Under the pieces are notes generated by a model that saw only the letters and a list, made by a program, of their open reading frames with translations, was not told the DNA's origin and did not search any database. A DNA stretch of 64,000 bases from Niallia sp. FSL W8-0635 (GTDB taxonomy: Bacteria > Bacillota > Bacilli > Bacillales > Cytobacillaceae): contig NZ_JBBOYD010000001.1 in the NCBI RefSeq assembly GCF_038007965.1, positions 2,644,501 to 2,708,500 of the forward strand. Reading direction: 5' to 3'. Position 1 is the first letter of the stretch. Every line of letters starts with the position of its first letter. The position numbers and the translations under genes were made by a program. This document shows, in pieces, positions 20,871-28,848 of this stretch.

Positions 20871-20918
20871 AAAATAGAAAAGGATATGCCGAATTACCGG
20901 CATATCCTTTTCTATTTT
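20871..20918. terminator. Bidirectional terminator (SGNH gene / msrAB)
   Basis: AAAATAGAAAAGGATATGCC (20871-20890) pairs over 20 bp with the sequence ending at 20918, which exits in TTTTCTATTTTTC. On the minus strand it follows or overlaps the msrB stop. Confidence 0.9.
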
Positions 20919-21340
20919 TCAAATAATCGTAGATACTTTCCATATCCTTTTTCTTCCAAATCTTCTTTTGGAATAAACTTCATCGCAGCAGAATTCATGC
21001 AATATCGTAAGCCTGTTGGATTAGGTCCATCATTAAATACATGACCTAAATGGGAATCAGCTTCTTTACTTCTTACTTCAGTACGAATCATTCCATGACT
21101 CATATCTTTTTTTTCTGTTAATTCCTCTTCATCAATTGGCTTTGTAAAACTTGGCCATCCACAACCAGCATCGTATTTATCGAGAGAACTAAACAACGGC
21201 TTTCCAGAAATAACATCTACATAAATTCCTTCTGAAAATTCATTCCAATATTCATTATGAAAAGGAGGCTCTGTCCCATTATTTTGCGTAACTTCATATT
21301 GTATAGGTGAAAGTTTTTCTTTTAATTTGTCTTTTTCCAT
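20912..21340 (-). CDS. msrB: Peptide-methionine (R)-S-oxide reductase MsrB
   Basis: MsrB of 142 residues, reducing methionine-R-sulfoxide in proteins. Visible motifs are '[14 protein letters not shown]', '[11 protein letters not shown]' and the catalytic '[13 protein letters not shown]'. The paired CxxC zinc motifs of other MsrB proteins are absent, as in B. subtilis. The ATG overlaps the msrA stop (TAATG), so the two are translationally coupled and repair both sulfoxide epimers together. Confidence 0.95.
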
Positions 21341-21873
21341 TACTTATCTCTCCAATTCTCTTGAATATAGGCTGCACGTCCTGAACCAATATGATAACGA
21401 TTGTAATGTTCAGGATTCTTTTTATAATAATCCTGATGATATTCCTCTGCAGAATAAAAGGTAGAAGCAGGAATAATTTTTGTTGCAATTTCCTTATTAA
21501 ACTGACCACTTTTTGCTAATTGTTGCTTTGATTCTTCAGCTAATTGTTTTTGTTCCTCGGTATGATAGAATATTGCCGTTTGATAAGAAAGGCCACGGTC
21601 ATAGAACTGTCCACCAGCATCTGTTGGGTCAATTTGTTGCCAATAAATACTCAGTAGTTTTTCATATGGATATATGCTCGGATCATATGTAATTTGGACC
21701 GCCTCATAATGTCCAGTAGTCTCTGAACACACTTCTTTATAAGTAGGATTCTCTTTATGACCCCCTGTATATCCCGAAACAACTTTTAAAATGCCAGGTT
21801 CTTGATCAAATGGCTTAACCATACACCAGAAGCAGCCCCCAGCAAATGTTGCTAATTCCATCTTTTTTTCCAC
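21340..21873 (-). CDS. msrA: Peptide-methionine (S)-S-oxide reductase MsrA
   Basis: MsrA of 177 residues, specific for the S epimer of methionine sulfoxide. The catalytic motif '[16 protein letters not shown]' lies at the N-terminus. '[22 protein letters not shown]' and '[19 protein letters not shown]' are typical for the family. Start at GTG 21873 with AAAAGGGG 9 nt upstream. First gene of msrA-msrB. Confidence 0.95.
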
Positions 21874-21989: not shown

Positions 21990-22028
21990 AAAATAAAGCC
22001 CCCCTGCTTTTTTATAAGCAAGGGAGCA
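21990..22028 (-). terminator. Terminator of the rsgA-like gene
   Basis: On the minus strand, CTCCCTTGCTT pairs with AAGCAGGGGGG with minor bulges, followed by CTTTATTTTTTT. Confidence 0.7.
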
Positions 22029-22052: not shown

Positions 22053-23105
22053 TCACTTTGTTTTATATTTTTTCGTCATGCTTTTCCATTTCTTCTTTTC
22101 ATCAGACTTTGCTTTCTTATCTTGACGCCTTTCTAAAAAAGCTAATTCTCTTAATAATTTTTTATAGCTACGTAGTCTATCTTCTTCCATTTCTCCATTT
22201 GCAAGAGCAAGCTTTATTGCACATCCACTCTCTTTTTCATGCTGACAATCCCTAAATTTACAATGGCCCGCAAGCTCTTCGATGTCCGAAAAGCTATTAG
22301 AGATTCCATCATCACCATTCCATAATTGAAGCTCCCTCATCCCAGGAGTATCGATTAATATTGCATTATTAGGCAATAAAACCATTTCCCGATTTGTTGT
22401 CGTATGTCTTCCTTTTGCATCTGAATCTCTAATTTCTTGTACTTCCTGTTTTTCATATCCAATCAAGAAATTTGTTAAAGTTGACTTACCTACACCAGAT
22501 GAGCCTAATAAAGCAACCGTTCTTCCTGGATGAAGGTATGCTTGCAAATCATCTAATCCTGTCTTATTTACAACACTAATTGTAATAACGGGTATTCCGA
22601 GAGCAACAGCTTCTACTAGCATTAATTTTTCTTTCACATCAACTGCTAAATCGGCTTTGGTCAAAATAATAACAGGATTTGCTCCACTTTCCCATGTTAA
22701 GGTTAAGTATCTTTCTAATCTTCTTATATTTAAATCTTCATTTAACGAATTAACCAAAAAGATTGTATCAACATTTGCTGCTACTATTTGCTCTTCCGTA
22801 TTGTTACCAGCTACTTTTCTAGAAAATTTGCTTTTTCTTGGCAAAATAGTTGTGATTGTCCCTTTCCCTTCTTTTATTCTTGGGGAAACGATAACCCAAT
22901 CTCCTACAGCAGGATATTCCTCTCTAGATTGAGCATCGTAAGCTAATTTTCCAGAAACTTCACATAATAACTCTCCATACGCAGTCCATACCCGATACAT
23001 TCTCTTATGTTCTAAAGAGATTCTGCCAATTATTTGATTTTCCTTAGCTTGCTTTTCAAATTCATCTTTTACATTTTCGTTATAGCCAAATTGAGTTAAT
23101 TCCAT
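22053..23105 (-). CDS. rsgA: RsgA-type circularly permuted GTPase, long paralogue type
   Basis: A 350-residue ribosome-small-subunit-dependent GTPase. An N-terminal OB-like domain is followed by the permuted G domain: G4 'VIILTKADL' first, then G1 'ALLGSSGVGKSTLTNFLIG', G2-region 'GRHTTTNREMV' and G3 'LIDTPGMREL'. The zinc-binding C-terminal domain carries 'CKFRDCQHEKESGC', and a Lys-rich tail ends the protein. RsgA helps late 30S maturation. This version is about 50 residues longer than the housekeeping YloQ/RsgA and has none of the prkC/rpe neighbours usual for that copy, so it is probably a second, accessory RsgA. The leader (23133-23358) carries an apparent attenuator. GGAGGT precedes the ATG by 6 nt. 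Confidence 0.9.
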   Translation of the reverse strand: MELTQFGYNENVKDEFEKQAKENQIIGRISLEHKRMYRVWTAYGELLCEVSGKLAYDAQSREEYPAVGDWVIVSPRIKEGKGTITTILPRKSKFSRKVAGNNTEEQIVAANVDTIFLVNSLNEDLNIRRLERYLTLTWESGANPVIILTKADLAVDVKEKLMLVEAVALGIPVITISVVNKTGLDDLQAYLHPGRTVALLGSSGVGKSTLTNFLIGYEKQEVQEIRDSDAKGRHTTTNREMVLLPNNAILIDTPGMRELQLWNGDDGISNSFSDIEELAGHCKFRDCQHEKESGCAIKLALANGEMEEDRLRSYKKLLRELAFLERRQDKKAKSDEKKKWKSMTKKYKTK

Positions 23106-23118
23106 TTATAGACCTCCA

Positions 23119-23182
23119 AATGTTTGCAAGATAAAAAACCATGTTGCATACAGCCCATGGTTTTGGTTTCCTTACAAACATT
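23119..23182 (-). promoter_or_regulatory. Outer stem around the leader terminator
   Basis: The sequences at 23171-23182 and 23119-23130 pair over 12 bp (one G-U) and enclose the terminator hairpin. The 3' strand ends just before the rsgA-like ribosome site (23113-23117), so this stem may affect both termination and translation start. Confidence 0.5.
23133..23164 (-). terminator. Leader terminator (attenuator) of the rsgA-like gene
   Basis: On the minus strand, AAAACCATG (23164-23156) pairs perfectly with CATGGTTTT (23143-23135), loop of 12 nt, running into a TTTTTT tract (23138-23133). It lies only about 28 nt before the rsgA-like start codon, so it must be bypassed for expression. Confidence 0.8.
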
Positions 23183-23258
23183 AAAAAATCTTCAACGAAA
23201 GAACTTAATTTCTTATAAAAAAATTAGTGCTATCGAAGTAACCGTTTGGGCTGTATGC
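23146..23258 (-). promoter_or_regulatory. Antiterminator arms competing with the leader terminator
   Basis: GCATACAGCCCA (minus strand, 23258-23247) is perfectly complementary over 12 nt to TGGGCTGTATGC (23157-23146). The latter is the loop plus two stem bases of the terminator. The two pairings cannot form fully together. The 5' arm lies inside or directly after the leader ORF, so ribosome position would decide which forms. Confidence 0.7.
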
Positions 23259-23298
23259 TATTTAAAATATTTACGTTTAATAAAGTATTTTTGCTCAT
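23230..23298 (-). CDS. Leader peptide of the rsgA-like gene (22 residues)
   Basis: A 22-codon ORF starting 'MSKNTLLNVN' and ending 'QPKRLLR', with AAAGGGG 10 nt before its ATG. Its codons run through the 5' antiterminator arm (23247-23258), so a ribosome at the stop codon would cover that arm. An overlapping alternative in another frame starts at 23305 and ends at 23258 (MYYEQKYFIKRKYFK). It stops exactly where the arm begins, but its ATG is only 3 nt from the GGGG. Either reading fits translation-dependent attenuation; I favour the first by spacing. Confidence 0.55.
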   Translation of the reverse strand: MSKNTLLNVNILNSIQPKRLLR

Positions 23299-23329
23299 AA
23301 TACATCAGCCCCTTTCATTTAATATTCTA

Positions 23330-23358
23330 ATTATACAAATTTTCCAACTAATTGTAAA
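23330..23358 (-). promoter_or_regulatory. Promoter of the rsgA-like leader
   Basis: On the minus strand, TTTACA (23358-23353), a 17-nt spacer and a perfect TATAAT (23335-23330) form a good sigma-A promoter. Predicted transcription begins about 20 nt before the leader ORF. Confidence 0.75.
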
Positions 23359-27973: not shown

Positions 27974-28816
27974 CTATTCAATATAATAACTAAAACCAAT
28001 AGCTCCTTTTCCTGTATGTGTTGAAATGATAGGTGTTGTATAGTCTATATCCACTTTCTTAAACCCAGTTGCCTTTTCAATAGCTTCCTTTAATTTAATG
28101 GCAACATCAAGACTTCCAGCATGCGTAATTCCAACACTTTTAATTTTTTTTCCAAGACTGTCTTCCAAAAAAGCACTTGCTAAATACTTTACTGCTTGCG
28201 AACGACTTCTTACTTTCGTAATTGGTGTATATACACCATCGTCAAGCGTTGCAATTGGCTTTATATTTAGTAAAGAACCAAGAAAAGCTTTCCCTTTTCC
28301 GATTCTTCCGCCCTTCATTAAATTCTCCAATGTATCGACAACAACATAAAGTTTCGTATGTTTCTTAATATGATTTAACCTTTGCAATATGTCCGCTACA
28401 TTGTGACCTTCTCGGGCCATTTCTGCAGCTTCTAGTACTTGAAAGGATAAACCTTTGGATATAAATTCAGAGTCAACTACAAAGACCCTAGCTTTTGTTA
28501 ATTGACTAGCACTTTTAGCTGATTCTACTGTCCCACTCATACCACCAGTCATATGAATAGAAATAATATCATATCCTTTATCAGCAAGTTCGTCATATTT
28601 TTCAACAAAGGTGCCAACAGAAGGCTGTGAGGTTTTTGGTAATTCTTCTGATTCCATCATTTTATCAATAAATTCAGCAGGAGTAATATCAACTCTATCC
28701 AAATAAGTTTTATCATTAATAAAAATAGATAACGACACTACTTCAATTTCATATTTTTCTAAAATTTCCTGTGATAAATCGACTGTTGAATCTGTTACAA
28801 TTTTGATTTTTTTCAT
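27974..28816 (-). CDS. DegV family fatty-acid-binding protein
   Basis: A 280-residue DegV-fold protein: 'KIVTDSTVDLSQEILEKYEIEVV' at the N-terminus, 'KTSQPSVGTFVEKYDELADKG' with the T-S-Q-P-S fatty acid-binding motif, 'SIHMTGGMSGTVESAKSA' and C-terminal 'GKGAIGFSYYIE'. DegV/FakB proteins hold a fatty acid for phosphorylation by FakA; whether this copy does so is not shown. GGGAAGTG precedes the ATG. It is a single-gene unit. A cre-like sequence overlaps the predicted transcription start (28849-28862). Confidence 0.93.
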   Translation of the reverse strand: MKKIKIVTDSTVDLSQEILEKYEIEVVSLSIFINDKTYLDRVDITPAEFIDKMMESEELPKTSQPSVGTFVEKYDELADKGYDIISIHMTGGMSGTVESAKSASQLTKARVFVVDSEFISKGLSFQVLEAAEMAREGHNVADILQRLNHIKKHTKLYVVVDTLENLMKGGRIGKGKAFLGSLLNIKPIATLDDGVYTPITKVRSRSQAVKYLASAFLEDSLGKKIKSVGITHAGSLDVAIKLKEAIEKATGFKKVDIDYTTPIISTHTGKGAIGFSYYIE

Positions 28817-28848
28817 TTCACACTTCCCTATTTCTCATTCATTTTTCA

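Follow-up and report, generated by a model that had tools for sequence, protein, structure and literature searches.

The accessory rsgA locus and its leader

The window, a stretch of 64,000 nucleotides from Niallia sp. FSL W8-0635, encodes on its reverse strand (-) an accessory copy of RsgA, a late 30S-assembly GTPase. From position 23358 to 23105 (-), a promoter is followed by a leader ORF of 22 codons, a linker, an intrinsic terminator and finally the rsgA start. The features of the locus, with the evidence for each, are as follows.

23330..23358 (-): sigma-A type promoter TTTACA-N17-TATAAT; 11/12 consensus matches
23309..23315 (-): Shine-Dalgarno (SD) sequence of the leader ORF, AAAGGGG; read in the sequence, purine-rich SD region kept in alignment A1
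23302..23311 (-): arm 1 (anti-antiterminator), GGGCUG-A-UGU, in the SD/start region of the leader ORF; complement of arm 2, swap test
23230..23298 (-): leader ORF, 22 codons plus stop, peptide MSKNTLLNVNILNSIQPKRLLR; ATG and length kept in orthologues
23247..23258 (-): arm 2 (antiterminator 5' arm), within the leader ORF; perfect 12-nt complement of arm 3, covariation
23146..23157 (-): arm 3 (3' arm of the antiterminator), overlapping the terminator in its 5' half and loop; complementarity, covariation, swap test
23133..23164 (-): intrinsic terminator, stem AAAACCATG/CATGGTTTT plus T6; sequence, covariation
23170..23182 (-): 5' arm of the outer stem, AATGTTTGTAAGG; swap test
23119..23131 (-): 3' arm of the outer stem, TCTTGCAAACATT, ending 1 nt before GGAGG; swap test
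23113..23117 (-): SD of rsgA, GGAGG; read in the sequence
22053..23105 (-): accessory RsgA-type GTPase, 350 aa, ATG at 23105, GTPase and zinc motifs intact; TIGR00157, PF03193, tree
21998..22027 (-): terminator hairpin 3' of rsgA; terminator scan

Given its own terminator at 21998..22027, accessory rsgA is probably transcribed alone. The genes msrA and msrB (window 20912-21873) lie downstream, with the rsgA terminator in between.

All elements named in the original prediction lie at the positions given there. Its promoter, at 23358-23330 (-), is the best promoter-like site in the scanned region. As a class, promoter-like sites are no more frequent there than in shuffled sequence (20 against 21.5). 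Of 160 orthologous leaders, 132 have a site with 10/12 matches or more in front of the leader ORF, compared with 3% of shuffled windows. The T6 hairpin proposed ahead of the rsgA-like start was found in place, and was absent from the output of a simple terminator scan because its loop measures 12 nt and the scan allows 3-8. We likewise recovered the predicted 12-nt perfect complement between 23247-23258 and 23146-23157, a pair of arms that scores 31; the highest score was 20.5 in 40 shuffles and 21.5 among 332 other genes of the genome. The leader as a whole folds with a z-score of -4.3, and none of 200 shuffles was as stable. Two overlapping leader ORFs had been placed behind AAAGGGG. The ORF of 22 codons was retained; the second was rejected, as its ATG occurs in only 35 of 63 aligned orthologues and lies in the window 3 nt behind the SD, which is too close.

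The protein reaches 169.4 bits against TIGR00157 (cut-off 100), matches PF03193 and contains circularly permuted G motifs and a zinc motif C-x4-C-x-H-x5-C. The residues of these motifs show a conservation of at least 95% among 60 accessory sequences and are also conserved in 25 named or metagenomic ones. The best named homologues include Niallia proteins with 79-87% identity. The one other RsgA of the genome is canonical and 36% identical to the accessory protein over the matched part. In a tree of 63 sequences, for which the program warned of long branches among proteobacterial rows and L013, accessory and canonical RsgA (CpgA/YloQ) formed separate clades (31 + 20 sequences; support 97/98 and 100/99), which confirmed the accessory status originally assigned to the gene. 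At E <= 1e-60, accessory RsgA was found in 12 of the 13 genomes of the genus, in 137 of 193 genomes of the family and, across the order (Bacillales, judging by its named members), in 223 of 397 sampled genomes, covering 77 of 130 genera; canonical RsgA was found in all 61 genomes searched.

The thirteenth genome of the genus (G006) carries a decayed accessory rsgA (L308), its G domain missing by eye and its leader still recognisable, which by eye looks like gene loss within the genus. Four genomes have a further RsgA copy, 41-42% identical (L162-L165); L163 passes the automatic attenuator test described below and the other three fail. Two proteobacterial metagenome assemblies contain accessory-type relatives (L015 and L016) that group beside the accessory clade on long branches. 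A plasmid search returned weak rsgA matches in 4 Leptolyngbya records only, and hence gave no sign of a plasmid-borne locus.

Orthologous leaders and their exclusive helices

Upstream regions were scored with a motif-free attenuator test, which asks for three elements at a score of at least 18: a leader ORF that has an SD, an intrinsic terminator downstream of this ORF, and a helix in which the ORF pairs with the terminator's 5' half. The test set comprised 217 orthologous regions, 141 from the family and 76 from outside it, the latter (60 fetched and 16 returned as loci) being hand-picked for family spread from the matches listed among the 223 positive genomes. Positive results were obtained for 163 of the 217 regions (120/141 in the family, 43/76 outside), for 1 of 332 other genes of the same genome and for 0 of 30 canonical rsgA upstream regions (30 loci of the 61 found). 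The threshold was chosen from five printed: positives among the 217 regions and the 332 controls numbered 171 and 11 at 16, 163 and 1 at 18, 138 and 1 at 20, 122 and 0 at 22, and 94 and 0 at 24. The controls were called with a simple ORF rule in 464 kb of this genome alone, and 193 of them have at least 150 nt of upstream space. The single control above 18 (L266) precedes an exonuclease-III-like gene, named by eye, and looks like a chance hit. The program mis-picked parts in some of the positives (L188, L245 and L013). Among the 54 regions that fail the main test, 12 score at least 16 in a translation version of it and 42, of which 16 belong to the family and 26 do not, stay unclassified; inspected by eye, several of the latter (for example L132, L146, L148 and L173) are terminator types with bulged arms, and L231 and L239 show nothing.

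Covariation was analysed in alignment A1, which holds 63 of 68 non-redundant references drawn from 155 of the 163 positives; the positives with the most divergent arms or spacing (L184, L223, L230, L242 and L253) were left out. L188 and L245 were set aside from the leader counts because the program had picked wrong parts. The antiterminator (arms 2:3) and the terminator are each paired in 91.3% of cells, a figure biased upward by the selection of A1 rows for arm complementarity, which inflates the compensatory pattern less. Changes on both sides occur in 7 of 10 antiterminator pairs and 7 of 11 terminator pairs among the 63 orthologues. Double-change cells number 27 in the antiterminator, against 7.1 in shuffles, and 32 in the terminator, against 5.6, and in neither case did any of 500 shuffles reach the observed count; as the orthologues are kin, permutation counts here and below do not equal probabilities. 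When the partners were slid by 1-3 columns, pairing fell to 17.5-48.4%.

For the anti-antiterminator (arms 1:2), 81.9% of cells are paired in fixed columns, compared with 33-55% in slid ones, and there are 12 double-change cells against 4.7 in shuffles. The fixed-register count is weak for this helix, with 3 of 8 pairs changed on both sides, matched by 223 of 500 shuffles and 5 of 6 slid registers, and the register appears to shift between clades. We also used a register-free swap test, in which each leader's arm is paired with the partner arms of other leaders (74 non-redundant of 156). Arms 1:2 gave -16.8 kcal/mol in the native and -12.9 kcal/mol in the swapped combination, and arms 2:3 gave -19.7 and -16.6 kcal/mol, respectively, with 0 of 5000 permutations as good in either case. 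The result also holds for the 25 leaders whose arm 2 is without the common CAGCCC. Diverged arm pairs can be seen directly in L242 (GTGTACACAACC with GGCGTTGTGTACAC), L013 (CAGTTCACA with TGTGGACTG) and L235 (GCCATCTGTCCC with GGGACAGATGGC, start region GGGGACA).

The original prediction had noted a further stem enclosing the terminator. This outer stem pairs the sequence just 5' of the terminator with sequence at the rsgA ribosome-binding site and proved to be a conserved part of the switch: the swap test gave -17.1 kcal/mol for native and -10.7 kcal/mol for swapped arms (0/5000; 88 non-redundant of 151 leaders), and 76 of the 88 leaders are at least 3 kcal/mol better than their own swap mean. 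Its 3' arm includes five SD bases (GGAGG or AGGAG) in 67 of 151 leaders and does not in the other 84; the window, in which the stem stops 1 nt short of GGAGG, belongs to the latter.

Comparison of the orthologous leaders shows selection on the three mutually exclusive pairings and on the outer stem. A check on orthologues for the two pairings and the leader ORF had been proposed together with the prediction; both pairings are kept with compensatory changes and the length of the ORF is kept. These comparisons indicate that the attenuator is real and conserved, and they support the earlier reading of a ribosome-mediated attenuator in front of an accessory RsgA.

A terminator of this kind is missing from some divergent accessory rsgA genes. 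Inspected by eye, L155-L158, L160, L166, L204, L236, L240, L243, L245 and L252 have instead a CCTCC-type arm with two alternative partners, the last part of the leader ORF and the SD of rsgA. The 12 loci that score at least 16 in the translation version and do not pass the main test include L200, L207 and L235, which by eye look like divergent terminator types; at a score of 18 the translation version finds 15 of 217 regions, 7 of which pass the main test as well, and a single one of the 332 controls. These data are suggestive of a translation-only attenuator, acting by SD sequestration, in some clades.

Leader ORF geometry and the proposed switch

The leader ORF starts with ATG in 63 of 63 aligned orthologues and in 146 of 156 leaders of the wider set. 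It has a median length of 23 codons (18-26), and arm 2 begins about 45 nt (40-49) after its start codon (5-95% ranges, 156 leaders). The reading frame over arm 2 varies (79/53/24 of 156 leaders). Among 81 non-redundant leaders, none of the positions that follow the start is invariant and no run of residues stands out. This bears on the possibility of a starvation attenuator, which would sense charged tRNA via regulatory codons and would share its overall RNA logic with the trp and ilv leaders. However, such codons would call for fixed residues or an outstanding run of them, and the regulated gene is not biosynthetic, so that we hold this explanation to be very unlikely.

The same data can be set against an Erm-type attenuator, in which a specific leader peptide arrests the drug-bound ribosome. 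Several drug-inducible leaders work in this way, the leader of hflXr has an RLR motif (PMC6310831), and the window leader itself ends in KRLLR. This KRLLR lies past arm 2, however, where a stalled ribosome would mask the arm, and neither the unconserved peptides nor the shifting frame over arm 2 fit a specific arrest sequence. In residues 2-11, the +x+ arrest motif occurs in 4 of 156 leaders, compared with 8.7 in shuffles; macrolide-type motifs early in the leader thus are, if anything, avoided. Control by an arrest peptide is in our view unlikely. Since the leader peptide is not conserved, the signal is probably the position of the ribosome and not the sequence of the peptide.

A ribosome covers about 15 nt on either side of its P site. 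On this textbook footprint, arm 2 stays uncovered while the ribosome is anywhere between the start codon and about codon 8; in 129 of 156 leaders, a ribosome that ends at the stop codon still extends into the arm. From this geometry, the design would read whether the ribosome is early or late on the ORF.

We propose the following model. In the default state, arm 1 would pair with arm 2, or a freely moving ribosome would cover arm 2 and end close behind it. Arm 3 would then be free, the terminator would form and transcription would mostly stop near 23133; in any read-through RNA, the rsgA SD would be hampered by the outer stem that encloses the terminator. In the induced state, a ribosome held at the start or the first several codons would cover arm 1 and leave arm 2 open, so that arms 2 and 3 would pair and no terminator would form. 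Because the 5' arm of the outer stem then sits inside the loop of arms 2:3, the induced state would, on topological grounds, also disfavour the stem at the SD, and RsgA would be made. The likely trigger would be the arrest of ribosomes during initiation or shortly after it, caused by a drug or by some fault. Translation of the leader ORF and these inducing conditions are, we infer, part of the switch, and the accessory RsgA would help cells to work or recover under ribosome inhibition.

An alternative would dispense with the ribosome as sensor: RsgA itself, a 30S precursor or a metabolite might bind the leader, as in ribosomal-leader or riboswitch control, and the ORF would be incidental. Rfam release 15 gave no match in the window at the gathering score and none near the cut-off at the locus, which leaves room for an aptamer outside Rfam. 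However, what the leaders have in common structurally is the set of exclusive helices, together with the outer stem and an SD-bearing ORF of conserved length, and the linker is poorly conserved in A1; ligand control is accordingly a very improbable reading. The linker also shows a mild enrichment of the NusG-type pause motif TTNTTT (65 of 155, 46 expected), and since it is only mild we do not claim such a pause.

Judged from comparative sequence evidence, ribosome sensing is by a wide margin the best explanation of the leader, and a two-layer, ribosome-sensing attenuator of the accessory RsgA GTPase very likely accounts for the locus as a whole.

Known attenuators and related leaders elsewhere

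Among known systems, vmlR, hflXr and bmrBCD come closest. The vmlR gene of B. subtilis is induced by drugs that stall initiating ribosomes, and its leader (PMC9226507) resembles the one analysed here in having a uORF inside an anti-antiterminator, an antiterminator and an intrinsic terminator. It also has an SD-sequestering hairpin, whose putative counterpart here, the outer stem, ends in the window 1 nt before GGAGG. Unlike this leader of 22 codons, which holds arm 2 and precedes a 30S-maturation GTPase, the vmlR leader has a tripeptide uORF and an ABC-F target. The hflXr/rli80 leader of Listeria (PMC6310831) and uORFC-6-1 before hflX (PMC8632094) likewise place a ribosome-associated GTPase paralogue behind a uORF-dependent transcription attenuator with an anti-antiterminator. 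HflXr protects against lincomycin and erythromycin (PMC6310831) and is the closest biological parallel to the accessory RsgA. The two differ in that HflX acts on 70S/50S and has a 14-codon leader with the RLR motif, whereas RsgA acts on 30S and its leader peptide is unconserved. Streptomyces coelicolor offers a functional precedent for an RsgA paralogue in an antibiotic response, the WblC/WhiB7 regulon: SCO6149 and SCO5211 (RsgA/EngC) are listed in the Discussion of PMC7157823 among the paralogue pairs whose WblC-activated member rises with tetracycline. There, control is by a transcription factor and not by an rsgA leader, and the likeness goes by the RsgA/EngC name.

The original prediction knew of no attenuator described for an RsgA gene, and our search of the open-access literature also found none among the matches listed. 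The term RsgA does not occur in the main texts of PMC6310831, PMC8632094, PMC11109978 and PMC10219788, nor do EngC, YloQ, YjeQ and GTPase in that of PMC2965389. The kind of regulation is known. Within the scope of our searches, three things are new: that it serves an accessory RsgA in genomes across an order, that it is indifferent to the leader peptide, and that its output seems to have changed between clades.

In the open-access literature we found no explanation for the second, deeply separate RsgA that many Bacillales retain. A strongly conserved stall switch, not seen before 30 canonical copies, would tell when the accessory protein is needed, namely when ribosomes stop at the starts of messages, and it suggests an unrecognised, chromosomally encoded response to ribosome-targeting agents at the small subunit. 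A further reading, which we offer tentatively and consider rather less probable than its negation, starts from the sensing arm: because this arm coincides with the SD and start region of the leader itself, the leader might be a direct gauge of initiation and 30S fitness, on which lingering faulty 30S or initiation complexes switch on a dedicated 30S-maturation or checkpoint GTPase. The accessory RsgA family would then be a 30S-side counterpart of HflXr, a widespread drug-inducible ribosome-repair factor of Bacillales whose control was kept through a change from transcription to translation attenuation. In the leader set, one control logic has been kept as sequence, peptide and perhaps the step of output changed.

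A covariance model built from A1 (R1) matched in 43 of 61 genomes at E <= 0.05, its E-values being rough. Weak second matches in the window (best E 0.006, 28719-28831) were taken as chance. We inspected 17 further matches, in 13 of these genomes, that do not stand before an intact accessory rsgA; 9 of them are chance-like and 8 have E-values from 1.5e-6 to 2.9e-4. The latter precede GNAT acetyltransferase genes (2), ABC transporter genes (3), genes for YrzI-type small proteins (2) and a decayed rsgA (1), with Pfam in agreement for the proteins of L306, L307, L309 and L310 and the other downstream proteins named by eye. Leaders before ABC transporter genes recall bmrBCD of B. subtilis, in which an ABC exporter, BmrCD, is under established ribosome-mediated transcription attenuation with ribosome-targeting drugs as the signal; unlike the rsgA leader, that of bmrBCD has 53 codons, a terminator inside the ORF and a transporter as its target (PMC4191407).

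Small YrzI-like proteins are encoded behind L309 (G023; PF09501) and L313 (G012; assigned by eye). Both leaders are of the type described here, with additional hairpins after them, and the two genes may also respond to ribosome stalling. Related uORF-terminator leaders precede the GNAT acetyltransferase genes of L306 (G196) and L307 (G207), which are candidates for drug-inducible modifying enzymes. Related leaders also precede the ABC transporter genes of L310 (G214), L314 (G215) and L312 (G098), assigned by Pfam for L310 only; the transporters of L310 and L314 resemble multidrug exporters.
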